Below are positions 37,216-53,613 of a DNA stretch of 64,000 nt, piece by piece. Both the position numbers and the translations under genes were made by a program. Origin of the DNA: Lachnospiraceae bacterium. Lineage in GTDB: Bacteria > Bacillota > Clostridia > Lachnospirales > Lachnospiraceae. A model generated the notes under the pieces. The model did no database searches. It saw only the letters and a list, made by a program, of their open reading frames with translations, and was not told the DNA's origin. Positions within the stretch are counted from its first letter, which is position 1; every line of letters starts with the position of its first letter. The stretch covers positions 186,001-250,000 of the forward strand of contig CAJTDN010000002.1 in NCBI GenBank assembly GCA_910574865.1, written 5' to 3'.

Positions 37216-37322
37216 CGTAGCCATAACACCCAAGGATTACCACGCGCTTCGTGCTCCCGCTGTCTCCGCTGCGGTCGGCGCCAAGCGAACGTCCATCGGA
37301 CGTTCAGTGCCCTGGTGTTACA
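37216..37322. repeat. Hairpin repeat between pduT and deoR
   Basis: GAACGTCC-ATC-GGACGTTC is a perfect 8-bp stem, and outer ends TAACACC…GGTGTTA pair. It follows the CGGTCSG…CAAGC pattern of the repeat at 33152. It may separate deoR expression from the shell operon. Confidence 0.55.
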
Positions 37323-37866
37323 GTATTGCGTTGCGTATCTGCGCGTCCGGATGCGCGATGACGGAGGAATCCAGATACATCCCGTCCTTTGCCACCACGC
37401 TCTTCGCCCGCTCAATCGCCGCTTCCACGGCAGCCACCTCGCCGGTCAGCATCAAATAGGACTTTCCACACATGCCCCTGGCGATGCGCAGCTCCACCAA
37501 ATCGACAATCGCCGTCTTGGCCGCCTCGTCCGCCGCCACGATAATCGAAGTAGCGTCATACGTCTCCATGATTCCCAACGCCGATACATCCTCAATCGCC
37601 GTCGCGCCATAGATAGCCGGGAAAATGGACTCGTGCGGGTTGCCGAGCACGAAACTGTTAATCAGGTACATCCCATGCAACGTCTTCGCGGTCTCCACTG
37701 CCGCGTTGACCGCACTCAAGTCTCCTGAAATGATTACGATATACTTGCCGGGACATACGGTCTGTGCTTCAATGATGCTGACTTCAGAGGTCTTGACCAT
37801 GGCATCGGCCGCCACGACACCCGCTGAAACAGTCTTGTATTCTACCATTCCAATTGCCTTACTCAT
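37318..37866 (-). CDS. pduT: BMC-T shell protein PduT
   Basis: 182 residues with two fused BMC domains (AIGMVEYKTVSAGVVAADAMVKT and ALGIMETYDATSIIVAADEAAKT). Cys38 in QTVCPGKY matches the PduT cysteine that binds a pore-centred [4Fe-4S] cluster for electron passage through the shell. Its start overlaps the end of pduS by ATGA, as expected for partner proteins in electron transfer. Confidence 0.92.
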   Translation of the reverse strand: MSKAIGMVEYKTVSAGVVAADAMVKTSEVSIIEAQTVCPGKYIVIISGDLSAVNAAVETAKTLHGMYLINSFVLGNPHESIFPAIYGATAIEDVSALGIMETYDATSIIVAADEAAKTAIVDLVELRIARGMCGKSYLMLTGEVAAVEAAIERAKSVVAKDGMYLDSSVIAHPDAQIRNAIL

Positions 37867-39206
37867 TTACCTGCACGTCCTTCCTGCTTTTCTATGATAA
37901 TGTACTTGTCCGTCACTTCGCTCACGTTCCCGTCAATCGAAGCGTGGATGCCGACGCTAAGTCCCTTCGCCGGTTCCGCGATCATCTGTCCCGCGTTCAC
38001 CTGGTCGCCCGCCTTTACGGTTGCCGATGCCGGAGCCCCGATGTGCTGGCTTAACATAATCTTCACTTTGCTTACCAGTACCGGACTCTCGTCAAGTGGC
38101 GCCTCCTTGTCGTATTTCGTCAAATCCAGCCTCGCCATCAACCGTTCCATTGGAACCTTGCGGTACTCGCGTTCCTCTCCCACCAGCTTCGGCACTACTT
38201 GTGGCGGCTTGAGGCCGTGGCTTCGAAGTCCCGCCTTGTACTCTGCCATCAGCGAACGCGGAGCCAGCCCTTGCATGCAGGAGTACATCTCGCACAGTCC
38301 GCAGGATGAGCAGAAGAACGTGTTAACAAAAATGTCAGGCTCCTGCACGTCCTTGCAGGTTGCCGCACGCATGAATAAATGTGGCTGGATTGGATGGCCG
38401 AGACGGTTTCTCGGACACAAATCCGTACACATCGAGCACTGACAGCAGCATGCCGCCGCGCGCTTTAAGTCGATGGACGTTTTCTTGCGCTTCTTCTGCA
38501 CGATTAAATGATCCTCGGGAAGCACCAACACGGCGTTGGTCGTCTTCGTCACCGGCTGCGAACCGCTGCCAATGAAGCCCATCATCGGCCCGCCGATAAA
38601 GTACACCGGATTCTTGGTCGTCGCCGCACCAGCCAGGCTCACCGTCTCCTCGATGCTCGTCCCAATCGGCACGCGCACGGTCACGGGATGCTCCACCTCT
38701 GCCACCACGGATACCAGTTTGTCCACTACCGGGACGTTCTGGTTCATGGCACGGTACACGTTGTAAACGGTCTCCACGTTGAACACGGCCACTCCGCATT
38801 CAATTGGCAGGCCGCCCGGCCTTACGACCTTCTTCGTCACTTCATAAATCAGGACTACTTCGTCGCCCGCCGGATACACTTCATCGAGAAGCCCCAGACG
38901 CACCTCGGGATAAGTGCCGATGACCGCGTTCAACGCGTCAATCGTCTTCGTGTACGCCTTCTTGATTCCGATAATGACTTCCTTCGCGCCGACCGCCTCT
39001 CCAATCAGGTGAAACGTATCGACAATTTCCTGCGCGTACTTTTCCAGCAATTGCCTATGTAATCTCAGAAGTGGCTCACACTCCGCACAATTCAAGATAA
39101 TCGTGTCCGCGTTCTCATTCAACTTGGCGTACGTCGGGAAACCGGCACCACCGGCGCCGACCACCCCGCCCTGCTGCATGATTCGGCTTAATTCTTTCAT
39201 GTCCAT
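37863..39206 (-). CDS. pduS: PduS/RnfC-like flavin and iron–sulfur electron carrier
   Basis: 447 residues. Glycine-rich GGVVGAGGAGFPTYAKL opens the RnfC-like NADH/FMN region. Two cluster motifs follow: CCQCSMCTDLCP and CSSCGLCEMYSC. A C-terminal barrel-sandwich region ends the protein. PduS moves electrons across the BMC wall with PduT, recycling NAD inside or serving reductive activation. It overlaps pduT and follows the vertex-protein gene by six bases. Confidence 0.92.
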   Translation of the reverse strand: MDMKELSRIMQQGGVVGAGGAGFPTYAKLNENADTIILNCAECEPLLRLHRQLLEKYAQEIVDTFHLIGEAVGAKEVIIGIKKAYTKTIDALNAVIGTYPEVRLGLLDEVYPAGDEVVLIYEVTKKVVRPGGLPIECGVAVFNVETVYNVYRAMNQNVPVVDKLVSVVAEVEHPVTVRVPIGTSIEETVSLAGAATTKNPVYFIGGPMMGFIGSGSQPVTKTTNAVLVLPEDHLIVQKKRKKTSIDLKRAAACCCQCSMCTDLCPRNRLGHPIQPHLFMRAATCKDVQEPDIFVNTFFCSSCGLCEMYSCMQGLAPRSLMAEYKAGLRSHGLKPPQVVPKLVGEEREYRKVPMERLMARLDLTKYDKEAPLDESPVLVSKVKIMLSQHIGAPASATVKAGDQVNAGQMIAEPAKGLSVGIHASIDGNVSEVTDKYIIIEKQEGRAGK

Positions 39207-39212
39207 AATCTT

Positions 39213-39479
39213 TTACTCCAGTCCTGTCCCGTCGTCAATAATTCCAACAATCGCGGCATCAATTGGCGCGTCCTTCATGCCGGTTCCAATCCTGGCCGCG
39301 CTGCCTTGCGCCACCAGCACGTATTCGCCGATTCCGGCACCAATCTTATCAATTGCAATGATTTGCTTGGCACCGTTTTGCATATGCTCCAATATGTCAA
39401 CAATCATGAATTTATTGCCGACCAGGTTGTCGCTTTTTCGTGTTGAAACAACACTTCCCGTCACTTTTCCTATCAGCAT
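39213..39479 (-). CDS. pduN: BMC vertex protein (EutN/PduN/CcmL)
   Basis: 88 residues beginning MLIGKVTGSVVSTRKSDNLVGNKFMIVD, the pentamer-forming vertex family that caps the corners of the compartment. Its start overlaps the end of pduL, so the two are coupled. Confidence 0.92.
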   Translation of the reverse strand: MLIGKVTGSVVSTRKSDNLVGNKFMIVDILEHMQNGAKQIIAIDKIGAGIGEYVLVAQGSAARIGTGMKDAPIDAAIVGIIDDGTGLE

Positions 39480-40123
39480 GGCAGGATCCTCACGGTATCG
39501 CCCGTCGCAATCTTGGCCGCGTTCGCCTCGTCGGTGTCAATGTGCATCTCCAGGGTGAAGCTTTCATCCACGCGGATTTGCACGTGGTTGAACACCGTCC
39601 CGCGCTCATTGTCCGCTTTCACGGAAACGATGTCGCCGTCATGCACGCCGGCAGCCATCGCGTCCTTCGGCGCCATGTGAATGTGCCTCTTGGCGATGAT
39701 GCAACCCTCCTTCAAGTAAATGACACCCCTCGGCCCCACTACCGCGACCGAAGCCGAGCCGACAATGTTGCCCGACTCGCGAATCGGCGCCTTCACGCCG
39801 AGGCGGATGGCATCCGTCGCGGAAACCTCCACCTGCGATTTGCCCCGAACCGGTCCCAAAATCCGAACGTTCTCAATCGCCCGCAGTTTCAATCCCACGA
39901 TGGTCACGGTCTCATTGGACGCATATTGCCCGCCCATCAGTTCCTTTTTCTTCGTGAGCTGGTAGCCTTCCCCGAACAACGCCTCCACATGCTCCTGCGT
40001 CAAGTGGACGTGTCTTGCCGACACGCCGACCGGCACCATGTATCCGCCGTCCTCGGAACCCTTCTGTTTTTCTATGGTCTCCAATACCAGTTTGGTAATC
40101 AGAGCGATGTCTTTATTTTCCAT
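39473..40123 (-). CDS. pduL: Phosphate propanoyltransferase PduL
   Basis: 216 residues. It converts propionyl-CoA and phosphate to propionyl-phosphate, recycling CoA in the compartment. Zinc-binding histidines lie in VSARHVHLTQEH and AKRHIHMAP, and the tandem β-barrel motifs are complete. The first ~20 residues (ENKDIALITKLVLETIEKQ) form the amphipathic encapsulation helix. Confidence 0.93.
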   Translation of the reverse strand: MENKDIALITKLVLETIEKQKGSEDGGYMVPVGVSARHVHLTQEHVEALFGEGYQLTKKKELMGGQYASNETVTIVGLKLRAIENVRILGPVRGKSQVEVSATDAIRLGVKAPIRESGNIVGSASVAVVGPRGVIYLKEGCIIAKRHIHMAPKDAMAAGVHDGDIVSVKADNERGTVFNHVQIRVDESFTLEMHIDTDEANAAKIATGDTVRILPC

Positions 40124-40250: not shown

Positions 40251-40847
40251 TTACTCGATTGCCGGAAGAATCTTCTCCACGTCGGTATGCGGCCTCGGGA
40301 TGACATGGGTCGCAACCAGCTCGCCAAGCCTGCCGGCCGCCTCGGCGCCGGACTCCACCGCCGATTTCACCGCGCCTACGTCGCCGCGAACCATGACTGT
40401 TACCAAACCGGAACCAATCTTCTCCGTTCCCACCAATACGACGTTCGCCGCCTTGAGCATGGTATCCGCCGCCTCAATCGATGCTACCAAACCTCTTGTT
40501 TCAACCATTCCTAATGCTTCTTGTGACATTCTTTTTTCCTCCTTCGGGATTTGTTTTGTTAAGATTGCCTGCTCCGCCGTCGTCTGCACGCTTTCCGCCT
40601 GGATACGTTCCACCCGGGCCGCCCGCGCGCTTTCCTTCCGGGTCGGCTGAACCGCCTGCGCGTTTTCCGCCGCAGCCGCCTTTTGCGCGCTCTGGCGCAC
40701 CCGCTGGACAGTCTTGGCCGGAGCCTTGGCCGTTGTCGCCTTCGTCGTCTTTTTCGTGGATGCAGCCGTACTTTTCTTTGCCGCGTCTGCCGTCTCGGGG
40801 TTTTTCTTCTTACGTCCCCGGCCCGTCGGCTTCTTCTCTTCCGCCAT
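40251..40847 (-). CDS. BMC-H shell protein with long Lys/Ala-rich N-terminal extension and internal start
   Basis: 198 residues. Residues 1–106 are a basic low-complexity extension ([23 protein letters not shown], many Ala/Arg). Residues 107–198 form a full BMC-H domain ([23 protein letters not shown]…[11 protein letters not shown]) nearly identical to the shell protein at 41162. The internal ATG at 40529 has AAGGAGG eight to nine bases upstream, so a 92-residue shell protein should also be made. The extension could bind nucleic acid, polyphosphate or cargo. Confidence 0.85.
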
Positions 40848-40861
40848 GTCACTGCCTCCCT

Positions 40862-41146
40862 CTAACTTACTCTGTTGTTACTGCCATTGATGATTTTCAA
40901 AATCTCTTCGTGGGGGTTGGGGATGACCACGTACGCGGCGGGCTTCTTAATCCCGCCCGTCGCCGCGGCCTCAATGGCCTCCGTCACCGCGGACACGTCT
41001 CCCCGGACGATGACCGTCACGAGCCTTCCACCCAGCTTTTTCTCCCATGTGACGAGTTCCACTCCGGCGGTCTTGCACATAATGTCAATTGCCACCACCG
41101 CCGCCGTCACACTCGGGATTTCAAAAAATCCATACGCCTGTCCCAT
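40862..41146 (-). CDS. BMC-H shell protein
   Basis: 94 residues, one BMC domain ([29 protein letters not shown]…[14 protein letters not shown]). It differs from its neighbours in the first strand (GFFEIPSV rather than GMVETRGL) and ends with a short polar tail, so it likely forms a distinct hexamer with its own pore. GGGAGG precedes the start. Confidence 0.9.
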
Positions 41147-41161
41147 GAGGCACTACCTCCC

Positions 41162-41437
41162 TTAGACGGTCGGGAGAATCTTCTCCACATCGTTGTGCGG
41201 TCTCGGAATGACATGGGTCGCAACCAGCTCGCCAAGCCTGCCGGCGGCATCCGCGCCCGTCTCAACCGCCGCCTTCACGGCTCCCACGTCTCCGCGTACC
41301 ATGACCGTCACGAGACCGGAACCAATCTTCTCCGTTCCCACCAGCGTGACCTCCGCCGCCTTCGTCATCGCGTCAGCCGCCTCGATTGCAGCCGTAAGTC
41401 CTCTTGTCTCCACCATTCCCAATGCTAACTGTGCCAT
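41162..41437 (-). CDS. BMC-H shell protein, PduA/PduJ-like
   Basis: 91 residues ([21 protein letters not shown]…[18 protein letters not shown]), the minimal hexameric shell tile and probably the main facet protein. It is nearly the same as the shell domain of the extended protein at 40251, implying duplication. A GGAGG site precedes the ATG. Confidence 0.93.
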
Positions 41438-41450
41438 TTTCTTGTCCTCC

Positions 41451-41795
41451 CTAAACTTCTTTTATGAATTTTTTATTTGGTTTTCCTTTATCCAAGCCGC
41501 TTAGCTTCAACATCTTTTCCGTATCCCCGGTCGGTCTCGCGATTTCGTATTCATTCACGACTCCCGCAAGCTCGTTCGCCCTCGTCCTCGCCGCCTCCAA
41601 GGCAGCCGTCACGTCCGCGACGTCCCCGCGGAACTTGATCATCACGATGACCGGGACGGGTAACGCGTCCGCATTCGCCGGCTTGTTTTTGTCGAAGGTC
41701 TCAAGCCTTACGTTTCCCGCCTTGCACCCGGCATCCGCCGCCGCAAACGCGGTCGCCAGCCCAAACACCTCCAACATGCCTACCGCTTCTTTCAT
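41451..41795 (-). CDS. BMC-H shell protein with C-terminal extension
   Basis: 114 residues. The BMC fold ([24 protein letters not shown]…[16 protein letters not shown]) is followed by a Lys-rich tail. It carries an insertion around [16 protein letters not shown] compared with the neighbouring tiles. It probably forms a minor facet hexamer. GRM-type loci often hold such a divergent shell gene after the dehydrogenase. Confidence 0.88.
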
Positions 41796-41805
41796 AATAC
41801 GTCAC

Positions 41806-43017
41806 CTACTTATTTACGATGGCAATCTTTAAGCCTTCCTGTTTCAAGTTCGTCACGTGTGCCTCGTTAATTTGCTCCAACGGGAACTCATGCGTAATCA
41901 AATCATCCATCGGAAGCCCGATTGCCTTGGCTCTTTTCAAGAAATCGAAAGTGGTCGCGTAGTCCCTCAAGGTGTATACCCAGGAACCGACCGTCGTGAT
42001 TTCCTTCGAACAGATGTCAAAGTGTGGATTGATGGTCGCGTCCCCGCCGTTAATAAAGAATCCCAGTTCGCAAAGCCCGCCGCCGTTGCGGATGAACTTA
42101 TAAATGTTCGCGTGGGCGATTGGCGAACCGGTGCACTGGAACGCAAAATCGGCCAAATATCCGCCGAACGCGTCCTTCACCGCTCCTGAAAGCGCCTCGA
42201 TGCCTTTGTGCTCCATGAAATTCACGGACTTCTCCGCGCCCATCTTCTTGGCAAAATCAAGTCTCTGCTGGTTTCCATCCACCGCCACGATGTTCTCGAT
42301 GCCCATCGTGCGCAGAACCGCGATACAAATCAGGCCAATCGGTCCGCAGCCTTGCACGACCACGCGGCTGTTGAACCTTAAGATGCCCGTCGTCTTCGCC
42401 CGCTCCACCGCGTGAATCAAAACCGCGCATGGCTCAATCAGGATGCGGGACTTCAAGTCCAAGTCACTTACGTTGAATATCGTGGAGCCTTCCCTGACCA
42501 GTATGTAGTCGGAAAACCAACCGTTCAAATGAATGTCGTCATCCGGCAGAAGCCCGTACACGTCCGCGCCGCCGACATTCTTCTTATTTAAATCAAACAT
42601 CTCGATGTCCGGGTCGTCCTTGAAAATCATGCAGGTAACGACTTTGTCACCGACCTTCAACGGCTTTCCGGCGCTGTCCTTCTTTACGTTCTTGCCCATC
42701 TTGACGATTTCGCCGGTTCCCTCGTGTCCCAGGGCGACCGGTATTAATCCGAACGGGTCACGCTTGAACTCGTGCGCGTCCGTTCCGCAGACTCCGCAAC
42801 CCTCTACCTTGACCAAGACGTCCCCGTCCCCAAGCTCCGGTATCGGGAACTCCTTGATGTCATAATGCTCCAAAGCCGTCAGCATGGCGACACGTGCCGT
42901 CTTCGGAACCGCCTGGCTTTCCGCCCTGGCCGCCGCCGGAGCCGCCGTCTGCGAGCCGAGCATCTGCTCCAAGACTTGCTTTACGACAGCTTCCACATTT
43001 GCTGAATTCATTTCCAT
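41806..43017 (-). CDS. Zinc-dependent alcohol dehydrogenase with encapsulation helix
   Basis: 403 residues. An N-terminal helix (SANVEAVVKQVLEQMLGS) and an Ala/Gln linker precede an MDR dehydrogenase. Catalytic zinc: GCGVCGTDAHEF and GHEGTGE; NAD site VVVQGCGPIGLICIAVL. No complete structural-zinc four-Cys cluster is visible. The helix marks it as compartment cargo. It may reduce lactaldehyde to propanediol or propionaldehyde to propanol, a role overlapping the iron enzyme at 35213. Confidence 0.85.
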   Translation of the reverse strand: MEMNSANVEAVVKQVLEQMLGSQTAAPAAARAESQAVPKTARVAMLTALEHYDIKEFPIPELGDGDVLVKVEGCGVCGTDAHEFKRDPFGLIPVALGHEGTGEIVKMGKNVKKDSAGKPLKVGDKVVTCMIFKDDPDIEMFDLNKKNVGGADVYGLLPDDDIHLNGWFSDYILVREGSTIFNVSDLDLKSRILIEPCAVLIHAVERAKTTGILRFNSRVVVQGCGPIGLICIAVLRTMGIENIVAVDGNQQRLDFAKKMGAEKSVNFMEHKGIEALSGAVKDAFGGYLADFAFQCTGSPIAHANIYKFIRNGGGLCELGFFINGGDATINPHFDICSKEITTVGSWVYTLRDYATTFDFLKRAKAIGLPMDDLITHEFPLEQINEAHVTNLKQEGLKIAIVNK

Positions 43018-43036: not shown

Positions 43037-44425
43037 TTACCGTATGCATAGACTTTCAGTCATTACACAGCGTCTTCTCTTCGTGAAGGTGCTTGCGCTC
43101 GTCAGACCCTCGCCGGTACGGCTGGCTATCGTAAAGGTACAAAAACCTTCGCCGCCAAAACCGAGTGCCGCATAGGATGGCCCGTTCTTCACCAAGATTG
43201 CCGTGTCAATCGCCTTGGCGTACTTCGTGATGTTGTCAATGTTTTTGGAATGAATGTGCGCGGAATGACGGTTGCCATGTTCCAGCCACACTGCCTGCTC
43301 CACCGCGTCGTCAAAGTCTTTCGCCCTCACGACGCCAAGAATCGGCATCATCAATTCCGTGGTAATCAACGGGTGCTCCTTCGGCCCTTCGAAAGTGATG
43401 CAACGGACGTTGTCCGGTACCGTCACTCCTATCATGGACAACAAGGTCTTGGCATCCCTTCCGACACACTTCCGATTCAGTCTTCCGTCTTTTAAAACAA
43501 CCGCCGTCAACTTATCCTGCTCCTCCTTCGAAGCCAGGTAGCAGCCCTGTTCGCTTACCATGTAGTGCATCAGCTCGTCCACCACGGAGTCCACCGCCAC
43601 GATTTCCTTCTCGGCAATGCACGGAAGGTTATTGTCAAACGTACAACCATTGACGATGTCCTGCGCCGCCTTGCGAATGTCCGCGGTCTCGTCCACCAAT
43701 GCCGGCGGATTGCCCGCTCCCGCGCCGATTCCCCTTCTTCCTGAAGAAAGAACCGCCGTCACGACTCCTGGTCCTCCGGTCGCCGCAATCAGTTGAATCG
43801 CCTTATGCTTCATCATCACGTTACTGCTCTCCAGCGTCGGCTTCTCGACCGTACAAGCAATGTTGTCCGGCCCGCCCGCCTCCAACGAAGCCTCGTTCAG
43901 CAAATTGATGGCATAAATGGACGTCTTGATGGCCGCCGGATGCGGGTTGAACACGACCGTGTTGCCGCCGGCCAGCATCCCGATGGTATTGCAAAGCACC
44001 GTCTCGCTCGGGTTCGTACACGGGGTGATTGCCCCGATGACCCCGAACGGCCCCATCTCGATCAAAGTCAGTCCTTTGTCTCCCGACCAGGCGGTGGTCG
44101 TGATGTCCTCCGTGCCCGGAGTCTTCTCCGCCACCAGTTGATGCTTCAAAATCTTATGTCCGACATTTCCCATGCCGGTCTCCTGTACTCCCATCCGCGC
44201 GAGAATCTCCGCATGTTCCTTGATTTTTGCGCGAATGTTGGAAATAATCTGTTCTCTCTGATCCATGGACATGCGGCATACGATTTTCTGCGCCTTCCGT
44301 GCCGCCGCGATGGCATCGTTCATATCCCTGAACACGCCGTGACCATCGGTGACGTCCGAAGAAATCTGCAGCTTCGCCATAACTTCCTGCACGATGTCCT
44401 GAACCATCTGTTCATTTACAGACAC
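43037..44425 (-). CDS. pduP: CoA-acylating propionaldehyde dehydrogenase
   Basis: 462 residues from GTG 44425, which follows AAGGAGGTAACA at proper spacing. The N-terminal helix SVNEQMVQDIVQEVMAKLQI is the encapsulation peptide. The aldehyde dehydrogenase core has ITPCTNPSETVLCN and catalytic Cys in FDNNLPCIAEKE. It turns propionaldehyde plus CoA into propionyl-CoA, feeding PduL. Acetaldehyde (EutE) is a possible alternative substrate. Confidence 0.92.
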   Translation of the reverse strand: MSVNEQMVQDIVQEVMAKLQISSDVTDGHGVFRDMNDAIAAARKAQKIVCRMSMDQREQIISNIRAKIKEHAEILARMGVQETGMGNVGHKILKHQLVAEKTPGTEDITTTAWSGDKGLTLIEMGPFGVIGAITPCTNPSETVLCNTIGMLAGGNTVVFNPHPAAIKTSIYAINLLNEASLEAGGPDNIACTVEKPTLESSNVMMKHKAIQLIAATGGPGVVTAVLSSGRRGIGAGAGNPPALVDETADIRKAAQDIVNGCTFDNNLPCIAEKEIVAVDSVVDELMHYMVSEQGCYLASKEEQDKLTAVVLKDGRLNRKCVGRDAKTLLSMIGVTVPDNVRCITFEGPKEHPLITTELMMPILGVVRAKDFDDAVEQAVWLEHGNRHSAHIHSKNIDNITKYAKAIDTAILVKNGPSYAALGFGGEGFCTFTIASRTGEGLTSASTFTKRRRCVMTESLCIR

Positions 44426-44430
44426 GATTG

Positions 44431-44519
44431 TTACCTCCTTACTATGAGCACTTAGTGCCTGTGTTTCAGGCACTTACGTGCGAGTGTACTCCGCGTACCT
44501 TGGCGAGGTTTCCCACGAG
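44431..44519. repeat. Hairpins between the PduO-like gene and pduP
   Basis: AGTGCCTG…CAGGCACT (about 44452–44472) and ACTCCGCGTA…TTACGCGGAGT (about 44489–44534) form nested inverted repeats in an otherwise tight operon. Likely mRNA stability elements. Confidence 0.5.
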
Positions 44520-45086
44520 CTAGTTACGCGGAGTTTCCTCTTGCCATGAGGTGTCTTCAAAACATTTTTTTCCATAGGCCGCGAGATGGGTATCCTCATC
44601 GGCACTTCCCCCGCTTACGCCTATCGCCCCGACAATCCGTCCTTCCACCTCCAGCGTTTCCCCGCCACCAAATATCACGATTTTTCCTCCGTTCGTGAAC
44701 TGGATGCCATATAACGACCCTCCCGGCTGACAAAGCGTCCCCAACCTTTGTGTTGACATCTTGAGGCTCGCCGAAGTAAACGACTTATTTAACGCGATAT
44801 CGAAACTTGCAATATAGGCCCCGTCCATGCTCTGCACCGACACCGGCCGGCCAGCCGCGTCCGCCACGGCGACCACGACGGACAATCCCATCTGCTCCGC
44901 CTGGCCCTGCACCTTTTCAATCAGCGCGTTGGCTTTGGCCAAAGTCATTTTCCCGTCCTTGCATTTACAAACATGACCCGGCTCCTTCTGCAGGCGCTTA
45001 CCATGTTCCGCCCCCTGGCCTTGCCCCGGAGTCTGGCGCTCGTCCAGCACCGCGCGCACGATTTTCGCAATTTCTTGTTCGTTCAT
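44520..45086 (-). CDS. PduO C-terminal/GlcG (HbpS-like) domain protein with encapsulation helix
   Basis: 188 residues. Residues 1–18 (NEQEIAKIVRAVLDERQ) are an encapsulation-type helix; a flexible linker with CKCKDGK follows; then the GlcG/HbpS fold (LSVVVAVADAAGRPVSVQSMDGAYIASFDIALNKSFTSASL…GAIGVSGGSADEDTHLA). In other organisms this domain binds heme or cobalamin-related cofactors. Since the dehydratase here needs no B12, a redox or heme role is more likely. It has no adenosyltransferase domain. Confidence 0.82.
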   Translation of the reverse strand: MNEQEIAKIVRAVLDERQTPGQGQGAEHGKRLQKEPGHVCKCKDGKMTLAKANALIEKVQGQAEQMGLSVVVAVADAAGRPVSVQSMDGAYIASFDIALNKSFTSASLKMSTQRLGTLCQPGGSLYGIQFTNGGKIVIFGGGETLEVEGRIVGAIGVSGGSADEDTHLAAYGKKCFEDTSWQEETPRN

Positions 45087-45090
45087 CGCC

Positions 45091-45900
45091 TTACATTCCC
45101 AACTGCTCCATGACCTTCTTGGTGATGGACGCTACCAAGTCGGCATCGTCGGCCGCCGGAGCGGACGCGCTCTTGCCACAAGAACCGCTGCAGGAATGGC
45201 AGCTCGGCTTTCCCGCTTTCGCGTTCGGGCAAAGGTTCGCCGGATGCTTACCTTTCATGCCGAACTGTCTCCTGATTTCGTACAAGTCCTCGACCTGCTG
45301 CGGGGAGAACTTCTGCGGCTCGCCGAGCATCTTGGACTGATAAAGCAACTGTGCGTAAAACTCGACGGATTCCATCTTGTGGTACGCGTTTAACAAAGAG
45401 TCGGAATAGGAAAGTGCCCCGTGGTTTTCAAGCAAAACGGCATCGAAGTACTGAAGGTACTCGCTTACCGCGTCCGGAATCTCCATCGTGGACGGACGGC
45501 CATACTTGGCAATCGGAACACACCCAAGCGCGATGACGGCTTCCGGCATGATTGGCTCCGTCAGCGGAATGCCGCAGATGGCGAACGTCGTCGCGTACAG
45601 TGGATGTGCGTGCACGACCGCGTTCACGTCCGGCCTTTCCTTATAGACGCGCATGTGCATCTTGATTTCGGATGACGGCTTGAAACCTTTGTTGGCCTGA
45701 ATCACGTCGCCGTTCTCGTCTACCTTGCAGATGTACTCCGGCGTCATGAATCCTTTGCTGACGCCGGTCGGCGTGCACAAAAACTCGTGGTCATTGAGCT
45801 TTACGGAAAAGTTTCCGTCATTTGCCGCGACCATTCCGCGCATATACACGCGCTTGCCGATTTCGCACATTTCTTTTTTGATTTCGTACTCGTTTTGCAT
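45091..45900 (-). CDS. Class II aldolase (fuculose/rhamnulose-1-phosphate type) with Cys-rich linker and encapsulation helix
   Basis: 269 residues. Aldolase core: MVAANDGNFSVKL, zinc ligands VVHAHPLYAT and LENHGALSY, catalytic Glu in the KPSSEIKMH loop. It splits a ketose-1-phosphate to dihydroxyacetone phosphate and lactaldehyde. After residue ~222 come CPNAKAGKPSCHSCSGSCGK, then an amphipathic helix DADLVASITKKVMEQLGM at the very end that targets it to the BMC. The start has GGAGG. L-fuculose and L-rhamnulose phosphate cannot be told apart here. Confidence 0.88.
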   Translation of the reverse strand: MQNEYEIKKEMCEIGKRVYMRGMVAANDGNFSVKLNDHEFLCTPTGVSKGFMTPEYICKVDENGDVIQANKGFKPSSEIKMHMRVYKERPDVNAVVHAHPLYATTFAICGIPLTEPIMPEAVIALGCVPIAKYGRPSTMEIPDAVSEYLQYFDAVLLENHGALSYSDSLLNAYHKMESVEFYAQLLYQSKMLGEPQKFSPQQVEDLYEIRRQFGMKGKHPANLCPNAKAGKPSCHSCSGSCGKSASAPAADDADLVASITKKVMEQLGM

Positions 45901-46024
45901 GTTCTTTTCCTCCTGAATATTGCAAAATTTTGTTCTCGGTTCGGCATCATGGCCTTTTCGCCCCTTTTTGCCCAAAACCTTTTAGTTATACTCGCGGCAG
46001 ATTAATCTGACGCTCAATATACCT

Positions 46025-46498
46025 TTATGATGGCACCTTTTCGTCATTCTTCTCCCACGGCAGGACGTCCCCTTCTTCCTTCAGGTGCCTCAGAATCTCG
46101 GGAATCCCCTCATATGTCTTGGAATCCACATGGAAAATCTTTTTGCATCCCGCCAGCCGAAGCCACCGCTCGGCACGCGAAACGTCCGCCTTCTCATCAT
46201 GAATCTTGGTGACAATTCCGATGACTTCCCGGTTACACATCGCCGTGCAGCACGGCGGATACAGCGAATACGGTTCGGTCGCCGACAAAAGCAGCCCGAC
46301 CACGTCCGCCTCATAAGAATACAGCGCCAACGCGTAACCCAAATGTTTCGTCTGCGCGTATTCTCCCGGCGTGTCGATAATGACGTCGAAGTGATTCACA
46401 TACTGTGTCTTGTGATACTTGATTTTTTCTCCTTTTAATGCCTGGGTCAGCGTCGTCTTGCCACACTCGCTCCTGCCCATCAATACTATTTTCCTCAT
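46025..46498 (-). CDS. EutP/PduV family small GTPase-like protein
   Basis: 157 residues. Walker A GRSECGKTTL and IDTPGEYAQTK. The usual G4 position reads VTKIHDEKAD, as in EutP/PduV. The role is uncertain; PduV has been linked to compartment movement. It begins four bases after the preceding shell gene. Confidence 0.9.
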   Translation of the reverse strand: MRKIVLMGRSECGKTTLTQALKGEKIKYHKTQYVNHFDVIIDTPGEYAQTKHLGYALALYSYEADVVGLLLSATEPYSLYPPCCTAMCNREVIGIVTKIHDEKADVSRAERWLRLAGCKKIFHVDSKTYEGIPEILRHLKEEGDVLPWEKNDEKVPS

Positions 46499-46502
46499 AC
46501 TG

Positions 46503-46865
46503 TCAGGTCCTTGTAATCTCGCACACGGAGAATCCCATCTTGTCCTTCGCATATTCGAGCACCGCCCTCGTGGCGGCCTCGACCTCGGAAATGGAACCGG
46601 TCACAATCAGTGTCCCGCTGAAGCGGTCTACGAATCCAAGTTCGATTCCCGCCGACTTGATGGCAATGTCCCCCGCGATAATGGCCGTTTCCGCCGGACT
46701 GATGGTCAGTACGCCGATGGCCGACTTACTGTATTCCACCCTCGGGTCAAGCCCCAGCTTTTCATACAGCGTGATGTCCGGACTGGCAATCAAGTGAGCA
46801 ATGGTAATCTCTTTGCCCGGCACCAGTTCCTGCACGATACGGCTCGGCATCAATTCCTCTCCCAC
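46503..46865 (-). CDS. pduU: Circularly permuted BMC-H shell protein, PduU/EutS-like
   Basis: 120 residues with the permuted order of PduU/EutS: RIVQELVPGKEITIAHLIASPD…AIGVLTISPAETAIIAGDIAIK. The N-terminal strand can build a β-barrel over the hexamer pore. It starts six bases after the activase gene. A short ribosome site, GGAGGGTGA, is visible. Confidence 0.9.
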   Translation of the reverse strand: MGEELMPSRIVQELVPGKEITIAHLIASPDITLYEKLGLDPRVEYSKSAIGVLTISPAETAIIAGDIAIKSAGIELGFVDRFSGTLIVTGSISEVEAATRAVLEYAKDKMGFSVCEITRT

Positions 46866-46871
46866 TTGTCG

Positions 46872-47666
46872 TCACCCTCCTATCTGGCACTCCACGCCGG
46901 AAACTTCTTTTGCGGCTTTGAGCAATTCCCTCATTTTTTCATTGGCCGGCGGCTCCACGTCCCCCATCAGGTATTCTCTCCCAAGGCCGGTATATTTATC
47001 CTGCCCGAGCCTGTGGTAGGGAAGCAGGTGCAGCCTTCGGACGTTCACAAGCTTTTTCGTGTATGCCGCGATGTCCCTGATTTCCTCCGGCGTGTCGTTG
47101 AATCCCGGAATGACCGGCACGCGGATGCTAAGCTCCGTCTCATGGGAAGCCGCGATTTTCACCGCGTTCTCAAGCATCAGCTCGTTCGACCTGCCGGTAA
47201 ACTCTTTGTGTTTCACGGGATCCATGTGCTTGATATCCAGCAAATACTGATCCAGATACGGGAGAATGCCCTCTATCGTCTCCCATTTCGCACATCCCAT
47301 GCTCTCCATCGACGTGTTGATTCCCCGATCCTTCGCCGCCCGAAGAAGTGCCTTCGCGAACTGCGGCTGGCATAGGCTCTCGCCGCCCGAAAGCGTCATC
47401 CCGCCCCCGGTTCTACGGTAATACGGCCTGTCCCTCTCGACCGTCTCCATCACCTCGGCCACCGTCACGTCACGTCCGATCACCTTCGGCTTTCCCTGCA
47501 CCATCATCGTCTGGATGGCATATTCCTGGGACTCCGGATTGCAGCACCACCGGCACCGCAGCACGCACCCTTTCAAAAACACGATGGTGCGGATGCCGTT
47601 TCCGTCATGGATGGAATACCTCTGAATGTCAAAGATACGTCCCTTTGTGTTCAAATATTCTTCCAT
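46872..47666 (-). CDS. Glycyl radical enzyme activase (radical SAM)
   Basis: 264 residues. Radical SAM cysteines GCVLRCRWC with GGGMTLSGGE as the SAM-binding turn. It installs the glycyl radical on the dehydratase encoded just upstream. The ferredoxin-like insert with eight cysteines seen in many such activases is absent: only CCNPES follows the first cluster. The start at 47666 lies two bases after the dehydratase stop, giving coupled translation. Confidence 0.9.
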   Translation of the reverse strand: MEEYLNTKGRIFDIQRYSIHDGNGIRTIVFLKGCVLRCRWCCNPESQEYAIQTMMVQGKPKVIGRDVTVAEVMETVERDRPYYRRTGGGMTLSGGESLCQPQFAKALLRAAKDRGINTSMESMGCAKWETIEGILPYLDQYLLDIKHMDPVKHKEFTGRSNELMLENAVKIAASHETELSIRVPVIPGFNDTPEEIRDIAAYTKKLVNVRRLHLLPYHRLGQDKYTGLGREYLMGDVEPPANEKMRELLKAAKEVSGVECQIGG

Positions 47667-47667
47667 A

Positions 47668-50205
47668 TTAAAAGCCCTGCTCCGTCCTGCGGATGATGTC
47701 GTCCTGCAAGGACTTGGACAATGTCGTAAACAATGCACTGTATCCCGCCACACGTACGACTAAATGCCGGTACTGCTCCGGATGTGCCTGCGCGTCCAAA
47801 AGCGTCTCCCTGTCTACGACGTTAAACTGCATGTGACTGCCCTTCTGGTCAAAGTAGGAACGAATCAATCCGACAAAATTCTCCAAACCGTCCTTGCCGC
47901 TAAGTGCTGACGGATGGAACTTCTGATTAAACAGCGTTCCGTTGGATGCAATGTAATGATCCAATTTGGAAACCGAATTGGCCGCCGCGGTCGGGCCGTT
48001 CACGTCCTTTCCTGATGTCGGGGAAACCCCGTCCGCCACCGGCGTGTGGGCCAGCCTTCCGTCCGGCGTCGCTCCGGTCTGCTCTCCTAACGGAACGTTT
48101 GCCGATACCGGATAAAGTCCGGCCTGGAAGCGTCCGCCCCTCGGATTGTAGTAGCGCTCCACCGGCTTCGTGTAAGTATAGGCCGCCTCTCTGGCAAACT
48201 CGTCAATCTCGTCCACGTCGTTACCAAACTTCGGCACGTTCTCGATCAATTCCAAAATCCGCTCGCCCTCGGCCTTCACCTTCGGAGACTCGCTCGCCTC
48301 CTTCACGGATTTGAAAATCGCCGCGATTTCATTCTCGCCGACTTCGCGTCCGCCCTCCTGCATCGCCCTGGCAATCCGAGTCACCATGTAGGCCGCGTCC
48401 TCCGCCGCCAGGCCCCTGCCATAATTCAGGGCCAACATGCCCTTAAGTTCCTTCATGGTCACTTTCTTTTCTTCGTAGACCAGCTTCTTGACCGCATACA
48501 GCGAATCCGTCACGTTGGCGATGCCAAATCCCTGAGGCCCGCTGAAGTTGTACACCGCCCCGCCCTCCTCGAAGGTCTTGCCGGACTTCATGCAGTCGTC
48601 CACCATCGCCGACAAGAACGGAAGCGGACACCTCTCGGCATGCGCCATGTCAATCGCGTTGTCCGCGTTGACCATCAGCTTGATGGCATATTCCATCTGA
48701 ATCTTGTAAGCGCGATAGAACTCTTCGAAGGTCGCCATCTTTTCCACGTCTCCGGTCTGCGGTCCTACCTGCGCCCCCTTGTCCATGCCATTGGAAAATA
48801 CCAGTTCCAACGGACGGCACATATTGAAGAACGCCGCATCATGCCAGCCGCAAGTCTTTCCTGCCTTCTGCGGTTCCACGCAGCCGATGATATTGTACTC
48901 ACGCGCGTCTGCAAGCGTCAACCCGCGGCTCATCAAGGACGGAATGATGACCTCGTCGTTGTAATAAGCCGGCAATCCGATACCCGTGCGGGTCAATTCG
49001 GCCGCCTTGACCAAGAACTCATGCGGCGAGCCGTTCCAAACGCGAACGGAGAACGACGGCTGCGGCAAGAACACGTGGTGGCAGGCTTGAATACACATGA
49101 ACGACAAATCATTCGTCACGTCGATGCCCTCCGCATTCTGTCCGCCTGCAATCAAATTCTGGAACAGGCCATAACCGGCAAAGCCTTCCGCCGACGCGGC
49201 ATCACGGCATTTGCTCAAATCGTTCATCTTGACCCAGATGCAGTCCATAAGCTCTTGTGCGAACTCCCTCGTAATCTTCCCTGCATCAATATCCTTCTTA
49301 TAATAAGGATACATGTACTGGTCAAATCGTCCCGGTGAAATTGAATGTCCGCTGGACTCAATCTGTAAAAGCTGCTGTACGAACCAGAATGACTGGCAAG
49401 CCTCATAAAAGCCCGTCGCTCCTTTTTCCGGGACATTGGCGCAATTCTGCGCGATTTGCAAAAGTTCCCGCTTCCTCGTCGAATCCGTGCACTTCTCCGC
49501 TTCCTCAAGTGCCAGTCTGGCGTAACGCCTCGCATATGTAATTGCCGCGTCACAGCTCATCATCATGGCCTGAAGGAGCCTTGATTTCTTCTGGTAATTG
49601 GCATCCGTGATACTGCACTTCGCCAACTCTTCCCCGGCTTTCGCCTTGATGCCGCCGAAGCCAATCTCCAGCACTTCCCAGTACTTGACAGTCACATGGC
49701 CGACACCGTTGTAAAAATAGTTGCCCGGCGTGAACATGTTGTGTTCCATCGCCAGCAGGGTCTCCGGTTCCATGTAGGCAGTCGCCAGCTCGCTGCTCGT
49801 CTTCCCCTTCCAATACTTGTCCGCCTCAAGAAGTTCCTTCTTCGCCCGCTCGGAAATATGGAACGGGTCGGCACTGCGCGTCTCCAGCGTCTCGAATTCG
49901 CCCTCAAGCCACTCATAAGAGAACTCCGGATATGTCTGGCAACTGTGCGGCGCAATCGTCGTGCTGCCGACAATCAATTCCAATGGCCGGATCACGATTG
50001 GAATGTTCTCCAAAATGTGGGCAAATGCCTTCGCCCTGCGGATGACCATCGGCTCGTTCTCCGTCTGCTTATACGACTCGGTAATCAAAACCGCACGGGC
50101 GGACTCGACTTCCGGGGTCTTCTCAAACAGATGCGCCACCAGCTGCGGAATCCGGTCTGACTTTGGAATGTCTGTACTGTCATAGGTGTATAATCCCATC
50201 TTCAT
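47668..50205 (-). CDS. Glycyl radical B12-independent propanediol dehydratase
   Basis: 845 residues. The thiyl-radical cysteine is in NIIGCVEPQKAGKT, with GCVEP typical of diol/glycerol dehydratases rather than pyruvate formate-lyase (which has two adjacent Cys). The glycyl radical loop is LVVRVAGYSALFTTL near the C-terminus. It removes water from 1,2-propanediol to give propionaldehyde. Start 50205 or 50199 after AAAGGAG. No encapsulation helix is seen at either end. Glycerol is a possible second substrate. First gene of the BMC operon. Confidence 0.92.
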   Translation of the reverse strand: MKMGLYTYDSTDIPKSDRIPQLVAHLFEKTPEVESARAVLITESYKQTENEPMVIRRAKAFAHILENIPIVIRPLELIVGSTTIAPHSCQTYPEFSYEWLEGEFETLETRSADPFHISERAKKELLEADKYWKGKTSSELATAYMEPETLLAMEHNMFTPGNYFYNGVGHVTVKYWEVLEIGFGGIKAKAGEELAKCSITDANYQKKSRLLQAMMMSCDAAITYARRYARLALEEAEKCTDSTRKRELLQIAQNCANVPEKGATGFYEACQSFWFVQQLLQIESSGHSISPGRFDQYMYPYYKKDIDAGKITREFAQELMDCIWVKMNDLSKCRDAASAEGFAGYGLFQNLIAGGQNAEGIDVTNDLSFMCIQACHHVFLPQPSFSVRVWNGSPHEFLVKAAELTRTGIGLPAYYNDEVIIPSLMSRGLTLADAREYNIIGCVEPQKAGKTCGWHDAAFFNMCRPLELVFSNGMDKGAQVGPQTGDVEKMATFEEFYRAYKIQMEYAIKLMVNADNAIDMAHAERCPLPFLSAMVDDCMKSGKTFEEGGAVYNFSGPQGFGIANVTDSLYAVKKLVYEEKKVTMKELKGMLALNYGRGLAAEDAAYMVTRIARAMQEGGREVGENEIAAIFKSVKEASESPKVKAEGERILELIENVPKFGNDVDEIDEFAREAAYTYTKPVERYYNPRGGRFQAGLYPVSANVPLGEQTGATPDGRLAHTPVADGVSPTSGKDVNGPTAAANSVSKLDHYIASNGTLFNQKFHPSALSGKDGLENFVGLIRSYFDQKGSHMQFNVVDRETLLDAQAHPEQYRHLVVRVAGYSALFTTLSKSLQDDIIRRTEQGF

Positions 50206-50318
50206 TGTCTCCTTTCTATATGCACACGTCACGATACGCATATAAATTCCCCCGGTGAGTCGGCACGCCCCGTCCAAAAAACCCCAAAAGCTCCAAGTTT
50301 CCTAAAAGCAAGTCGAAA

Positions 50319-51567: not shown

Positions 51568-53262
<1,695 letters not shown>

Positions 53263-53325
53263 TCACTCATCAAACCTTTTACTGGTAACTCCTTTGCCGG
53301 CCAGGTTCTGCCGTCATCTTAACGG

Positions 53326-53613
53326 TCATTCTTCCACGATGGCCAAAATGTCGCCCTGCTTCACCACGATATACTCCTCGCCGTCAAGCTCCACGTTCGT
53401 CCCGGCATACTTGGAATAAATCACCTTGTCACCCACTTTAACCTGCATCGTCACTTCTTTTCCATCTATCACTCCGCCCGGTCCTACGGCGATGACCTCC
53501 GCCTCCTGGGGCTTCTCCTTTGCCTGCCCCGGAAGAACGATGCCGGACTTCGTCGTCTCTTCTGCCTCTAACTGCCTTAATACAATCTTATCACCCAATG
53601 GTACTAACTTCAT
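53326..53613 (-). CDS. groES: Co-chaperonin GroES
   Basis: 95 residues, MKLVPLGDKIVLRQLEAEE…KVGDKVIYSKYAGTNVELDGEEYIVV. Forms the heptameric lid on GroEL. AAGGAGG lies upstream of the start. Confidence 0.98.
   Translation of the reverse strand: MKLVPLGDKIVLRQLEAEETTKSGIVLPGQAKEKPQEAEVIAVGPGGVIDGKEVTMQVKVGDKVIYSKYAGTNVELDGEEYIVVKQGDILAIVEE

Follow-up and report, generated by a model that had tools for sequence, protein, structure and literature searches.

Conserved nested starts in an armed BMC-H shell gene of a GRM5-type locus: a candidate source of plain and armed tiles

Can one shell gene of a bacterial compartment supply both a plain tile and a version of it that bears a long charged arm, and what would such an arm do? 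The question is raised by a gene of a Lachnospiraceae bacterium, found in a DNA stretch of 64,000 nucleotides (the window). The minus-strand ORF 40847-40251 encodes 198 amino acids, in which residues 1-106 form an arm that is followed by a canonical shell domain (PF00936). The original prediction gave the coordinates, the 106-residue arm and the internal ribosome site with ATG at 40529 correctly and did not mention the strand; the plus-strand reading of 40251-40847 has stops in frame 1.

The armed gene and its locus

PF00936 matches residues 111-186 as a single domain (E 1.3e-29, 102.4 bits vs. a curated cut-off of 24.5). Profile positions 1-75 are matched in one stretch, and the domain order is canonical, not permuted. 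The protein carries the basal motifs KAAN (132-135) and PRPH (184-187), named as in PMC8217296, and is co-linear with PduA (3ngk). An internal in-frame ATG (Met107, 40529-40527, minus strand) is preceded by AAGGAGG at 40544-40538, 8 nt 5' of it; a product begun there would be a plain tile of 92 residues. For the long form, a separate GGGAGG stands 7 nt 5' of the ATG (40847), which lies 14 nt past the stop of the preceding shell gene. The features of the gene and its operon are as follows, all on the minus strand.

37318..37866, minus: PduT-type tandem shell protein (profile match)
37863..39206, minus: PduS-like protein (Complex1_51K, RnfC_N, Fer4)
39213..39479, minus: BMC-P vertex protein (EutN_CcmL)
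39473..40123, minus: PduL phosphotransacylase (PTAC)
40251..40847, minus: extended BMC-H gene, long form of 198 aa, second basal BMC-H copy of the operon (ORF, PF00936; arm coding by pN/pS and indels in relatives)
40251..40529, minus: predicted short form, 92-aa plain tile from Met107 (PF00936; ATG at domain start in 328/328 genes)
40530..40847, minus: codons of the 106-residue low-complexity arm, rich in K/A/T/E (sequence; low AF2 confidence over most of it)
40538..40544, minus: internal ribosome site AAGGAGG (GGAGG kept in 84/86; synonymous freeze)
40855..40861, minus: upstream ribosome site AGGGAGG for the long form (duplex -11.9 kcal/mol)
40862..41146, minus: upstream BMC-H, 94 aa (stop 14 nt before the long-form start)
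41162..41437, minus: first basal BMC-H copy, 91 aa, without arm (82% identical to the domain of the armed gene)
41451..41795, minus: further BMC-H, 114 aa (profile match)
41806..43017, minus: lactaldehyde-reductase-type zinc alcohol dehydrogenase (ADH; profile match)
43037..44473, minus: aldehyde dehydrogenase (AldDH; profile match)
44520-45086, minus: HbpS-like protein (profile match)
45091..45975, minus: class II (fuculose/rhamnulose phosphate) aldolase (profile match)
46025-46552, minus: EutP/PduV-type GTPase (PF10662)
46872..47753, minus: glycyl radical activating enzyme (profile match)
47668..50277, minus: glycyl radical enzyme (profile match), by locus type a presumed 1,2-propanediol dehydratase

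The locus is of the GRM5 type (fucose/rhamnose, glycyl radical enzyme). Judged by the gene set that defines this type (PMC6325248), it holds a glycyl radical enzyme and its activase together with a class II aldolase and a lactaldehyde reductase, and also PduS, recognized by Pfam domains only, and PduT, whose 128.3 bits lie under the NCBIfam equivalog cut-off of 250.3. A 120-aa BMC protein, taken for PduU, is among the operon neighbours. The GTPase belongs to a family (PF10662) that was once tied to compartment positioning (PMC8262871). The first basal BMC-H copy (41162..41437) is the probable partner of the armed gene in mixed facets. By eye, short terminal stretches resembling encapsulation peptides are seen in PduL (39473-40123), ADH (41806-43017), AldDH (43037-44473), the HbpS-like protein (44520-45086) and the aldolase (45091-45975), all on the minus strand, and GroEL- and GroES-like ORFs, also recognized by eye, lie near the operon at 51568-53613 (minus).

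Selection on both starts and on the arm

Homologues were collected in four ways. A family search matched 117 of 397 genomes, with 30 loci kept; GTDB contigs contributed the best 80 of 575 confirmed stretches; 48 regions were taken by place; a class-wide search matched 112 of 391 genomes. The 187 sequences, including the window, yielded 328 distinct BMC-H genes at a domain identity of at least 70%, which split into 86 extended, 223 short and 19 ambiguous genes, the last being dropped from the counts. A gene was called extended if at least 25 open codons precede the domain ATG and an upstream start has SD pairing of -4 kcal/mol or better. The upstream start is the best SD candidate, a choice that favours it, and is the first ATG of the frame in 72/86. 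Exact duplicates were removed from the 86 genes and near-duplicates kept. A first data set of 66 dereplicated genes was obtained from 76 candidates by discarding eight (weak or absent upstream SD, or masked bases) and then two near-duplicates among the remaining 68. A descent-controlled test used 12 non-overlapping close pairs (one of 13 was left out), and the alignment of armed proteins from named contigs left out 3 of 25. The set leans to near relatives because the window protein served as the query.

An ATG stands at the domain start in 86/86 extended genes and in all 328 BMC-H genes. GGAGG is present at -17 to -4 of this ATG in 84 of the 86 distinct extended homologues, with a spacing of 8 nt in 80, 5 in three and 7 in one; the other two have AGGAG. 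In the anchored profile, AAGGAGG holds 1.5-1.9 bits per base vs. a mean of 0.37 further upstream. The motif occurs at the internal start of 64 of the 66 dereplicated genes; synonymous recoding according to the codon usage of each gene would produce it in 10.3. It is seen at 36 of 2703 control in-frame positions inside the arms (Fisher P 9e-22 for the internal GGAGG, a value that treats the genes as independent and leaves shared descent uncorrected). As background, 1454 further ORFs called mechanically in these loci contain 9807 internal in-frame ATGs, of which 128 have GGAGG before them (12 of the 128 in the window); some of these 128 are perhaps true starts. Across the 12 non-overlapping pairs, none of the 27 synonymous sites in the final five arm codons differs (binomial P 1e-7), while pS in the same pairs is 0.447 over the rest of the arm and 0.338 over the domain. 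The recoding expectation, the ORF background and the pair test rule out chance or codon bias as the origin of the internal site. The original prediction had staked itself on an internal start conserved in relatives, and on this point the start passed.

Two arms, in loci L041 and L049, have a different internal ribosome site before the domain ATG, AAGGGAGG, spaced by 5 nt and spelled by other residues; it looks like the same signal re-made.

The long form bears marks of its own. Pooled over the 12 non-overlapping pairs, arm pN is 0.147 vs. pS of 0.447; pN is below pS in each of the 13 close pairs scored, and all 17 arm indels are multiples of three. The pN/pS values and the in-frame indels rule out the arm as an untranslated leader. 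The preceding BMC-H gene was located for 62 genes, and in 48 of these its stop overlaps the upstream start or is at most 21 nt away. An SD energy of -5 or better is seen at the first in-frame ATG in 69/82 vs. 18% of random sites, and the long form begins with MAE or MAD in 55/86. By these patterns of sequence change, both starts and the arm as a translated protein are under selection. Since both start signals have been kept by evolution in many related Clostridia, this one shell gene very probably makes its tile in two versions, plain and with a long charged arm attached; the idea of two products from one gene thus gains strong support from the conservation of both starts.

As to which form prevails, pairing with the anti-SD is stronger at the internal site in 85/86 (mean -11.5 vs. 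-8.1 kcal/mol upstream), and in the extended set the surroundings of the internal site are less folded (-4.1 vs. -6.9 kcal/mol upstream). Because the internal site pairs better and lies in weaker folding, the plain tile is predicted to be dominant. In the window itself the two duplexes are nearly equal (-12.2 internal vs. -11.9 kcal/mol upstream), and only the folding (-4.2 around the internal site vs. -8.3 around the upstream one) favours the plain tile. The expectation that armed tiles are the minority therefore agrees well with the set and less surely with the window; the plain tile is probably the more abundant form, which stays a prediction.

Each of the two forms might nevertheless be the only one that counts. 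SD-like codons inside genes can slow ribosomes. If only the long form were made, the internal AAGGAGG might serve to pause elongation, or simply follow from the residues of a KEEKR linker, which are indeed common there. This is very improbable: a Met codon stands at initiation spacing in 86/86, GGAGG-ATG opens the stand-alone short copies too (198/223), and the residues that spell the site change (KEEKR, REVK, TEVRK, KEVPK, EEEIK, KENVK) but the site stays, so that recoding gives about 10 of 66 and 64 are observed. Conversely, only the short form might be made in quantity, with the upstream start and the arm as a leaky remnant of a 5' region whose frame happened to remain open. The stronger internal site in 85/86, the many relatives without an arm and the weak upstream sites of some members all agree with that, but it is hard to reconcile with purifying selection at the protein level, with indels that are exclusively in frame, with an upstream SD that in the window is as strong as the internal one, and with the recurrent MAE or MAD start (55/86). 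We therefore regard a leftover arm as improbable, though less so than a long form made alone.

Distribution of the arm among loci

An extended gene occurs in 19 of the 27 class-wide loci that hold such a BMC-H gene, so the trait extends to several families beyond Lachnospiraceae. The 78 loci from family genomes, including the window, comprise 43 with an extended gene, 32 with short genes only and three ambiguous. Of the extended genes, 83/86 occupy the second place in a pair of basal copies, a place that is taken by a short gene in 63 cases. Of the extended loci of at least 15 kb, all 18 have PduT, PduS, BMC-P, PduL, ADH and AldDH in view, 14 the aldolase and seven the glycyl radical enzyme. 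The 24 short-only loci of at least 15 kb include 15 with PduT and 11 with the aldolase, and those 11 look GRM5-like. The 63 short second copies and the 11 of 24 GRM5-like short-only loci suggest that the arm is dispensable or replaceable. A gene tree over 309 genes gives 28 (protein) or 33 (DNA) changes of state; because the 88-residue domain is too short, gain or loss of the arm is not read from it. In 20 loci with long 5' gaps, examined by the longest open stretch and its K/A/E/T share, no clear relic of an arm in another frame was seen by eye 5' of the short copies. Locus L025 (minus) has a 99-codon open stretch of imperfect repeats (RRETSGRDGGK...) before the BMC-H domain, without an upstream ribosome site; it was either dropped or classed as ambiguous.

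Nature and possible role of the arm

Over the 66 dereplicated genes the arm is 19 to 114 residues long and consists of 19% K, 17% A, 13% E and 12% T, large hydrophobic residues being scarce (V 5.9%, I 3.5%, L 0.9%) and aromatics nearly absent. Its net charge averages +0.09 per residue (+0.14 in the window), being positive in 56/66 and neutral or negative in 10/66. Near relatives share a 12-residue arm motif. What these arms have in common is a hydrophilic character, low complexity and, in most of them, a mildly basic charge that is loosely kept, rather than a particular sequence. The AF2 model (mean pLDDT 63.5) has low confidence over most of the arm and draws the start of the domain as a helix. 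In known BMC folds this part is a strand. Given that mean pLDDT and the helix, the model adds little beyond a low-confidence arm.

In unpermuted BMC-H proteins both termini lie on the concave, outward (cytosolic) face (PMC6787980; PMC6109187 for PduA), although the orientation in native compartments is still disputed (PMC6109187). By this published topology the arm should face the cytosol. A precedent is PduK, a BMC-H protein with a flexible C-terminal extension, which is needed for the normal cellular distribution of Pdu compartments and whose extension is proposed by its authors to act from the concave face outside the shell (PMC9132943). The outward topology and the PduK precedent support spacing or positioning better than a cargo tether. 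On topology and analogy, spacing or positioning of the compartment is thus the likelier, though hypothetical, role. The original prediction had instead proposed a basic arm that tethers cargo, enzymes or nucleic acid. It is the less well supported of the two: 10 of 66 arms are neutral or negative and the sequence is barely conserved, and for enzymes inside the shell the published outward N-termini argue against a tether (PMC6787980, PMC6109187), with the native orientation in dispute.

The best explanation that we can offer is the following. One mRNA region carries two in-frame starts. Ribosomes loading upstream would make the 198-residue long form, a disordered arm plus a tile; those loading directly at the internal AAGGAGG would make the 92-residue plain tile, predicted to be more abundant. 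The two forms would co-assemble with each other, as expected from their identical BMC domain, and with the nearly identical first copy, so that GRM5 hexamers would carry zero to a few arms instead of six. On the concave cytosolic face the arm may serve as a sparse flexible spacer that keeps the compartments apart, soluble or positioned, comparable to the role proposed for the flexible extension of PduK. We give this whole account, from nested starts through armed and plain tiles in mixed hexamers to the outward arm as spacer, a probability of about 0.7; within it, we infer the accumulation of both proteins, their ratio, the mixed hexamers, the outward arm and the spacer role. A further proposal is much more tentative: the strengths of the two nested ribosome sites might set the number of disordered charged arms outside the GRM5 shell, a tunable coat whose arms would keep the organelle spaced or in position with no dedicated positioning protein.

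Two other roles have to be weighed against the spacer. The arm could bind the enzyme core and tie it to the shell in place of the N-terminal 37 residues of PduB, the short form being a filler tile. Among known shell genes with two forms PduB/PduB' comes nearest, and residues 1-37 of PduB join the core to the shell (PMC9132943). The GRM5 locus lacks PduB, and the sole PduB found in the genome (262218-262889 of another contig, G000:C3) lacks such a linker, its match to a PduB model beginning at position 38, and stands alone, with no other BMC gene among its scanned neighbours. PduB exceeds the cut-off in 12 of 200 family genomes. Nine of these genes start 12-16 residues before the anchor and three carry an N-terminus of 36-44 residues; apart from this genome, the linker-less genes occur in eight other family genomes, and of the nine genomes concerned eight have an armed BMC-H and one only short copies. 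This pattern fits a linker job moved to BMC-H, but also a shell without such a linker. The 12-residue arm motif of close relatives could be a helix. However, PduB 1-37 is reported to be highly conserved over four genera, whereas the arms vary in length (19 to 114) and sequence and by eye bear no likeness to that N-terminus; 17 of the 25 armed genomes of the searched set have no PduB over the cut-off; canonical BMC-H N-termini point outward in recombinant shells; and GRM enzymes are predicted to carry encapsulation peptides of their own (PMC6325248). A role as core linker is thus conceivable but unlikely. Alternatively, the arm might bind nucleic acid or another polyanion, placing compartments on the nucleoid or gathering RNA. 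The net positive charge of 56/66 arms and of the window arm speaks for it, as do the core features of the positioning protein McdB, which include length-variable, compositionally biased disordered regions (PMC8262871), and the lack of a ParA-type ATPase (PF13614) in the window, none of the genome's 13 matches to this potential McdA-type partner lying there. Nevertheless, 10/66 arms have no net charge or an acidic one, Glu ranks third among the residues, and no conserved binding motif was seen in the arms. Polyanion binding seems rather improbable, more so than a linker, and an outward spacer remains our preferred reading.

Known systems and significance

The long and short forms of CcmM (CcmM58/CcmM35) and CsoS2 (CsoS2A/B) in carboxysomes are also made from one gene each; unlike the window gene, these are scaffold proteins, not shell tiles, and CsoS2 uses frameshifting. 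PduB/PduB' is closer: one shell gene with two in-frame starts, in which only the long form has an N-terminal extension and both forms build the same shell (PMC9132943, PMC10100840). The window gene shares the nested in-frame second start that removes the N-terminus, as judged by conservation. It differs in that PduB belongs to the two-domain BMC-T class and has a linker that is short (37 residues) and conserved, whereas the window gene is a one-domain BMC-H of GRM5-type loci, without PduB models of NCBIfam among its matches and with a low-complexity arm (19-114 residues in homologues) that has no visible sequence resemblance to that linker. PduK likewise combines a BMC-H tile with an extension that should lie on the concave outer side, and the protein is needed for compartment distribution (PMC9132943, PMC12058022), but its extension is C-terminal, whereas that of the window gene is N-terminal and optional through the second start. 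Cphy_1182 of the Clostridium phytofermentans GRM5 locus has the same operon position, before PduL (PMC3557285). According to a footnote to Table 1 of Petit et al. 2013, only its residues 73-161 were aligned to the homologue, which implies an N-terminal extension of about 72 residues; the passages of that paper available to us do not discuss an extension or a second start (PMC3557285). Long extensions of BMC-H proteins have been recorded, usually at the C-terminus (PMC8217296). In the openly accessible literature searched, no account of a dual-start BMC-H was found.

If the account is true, nested translation starts would govern shell composition in a second, unrelated case. The tile concerned is the canonical one of the facets, and its compartment occurs in many Clostridia. 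Annotation that assigns a single product to each ORF would overlook one of the two proteins. The dual-start gene would offer a ready genetic design to display a chosen fraction of tagged tiles on engineered shells, and a direct experimental way into the spacing or loading of such compartments.
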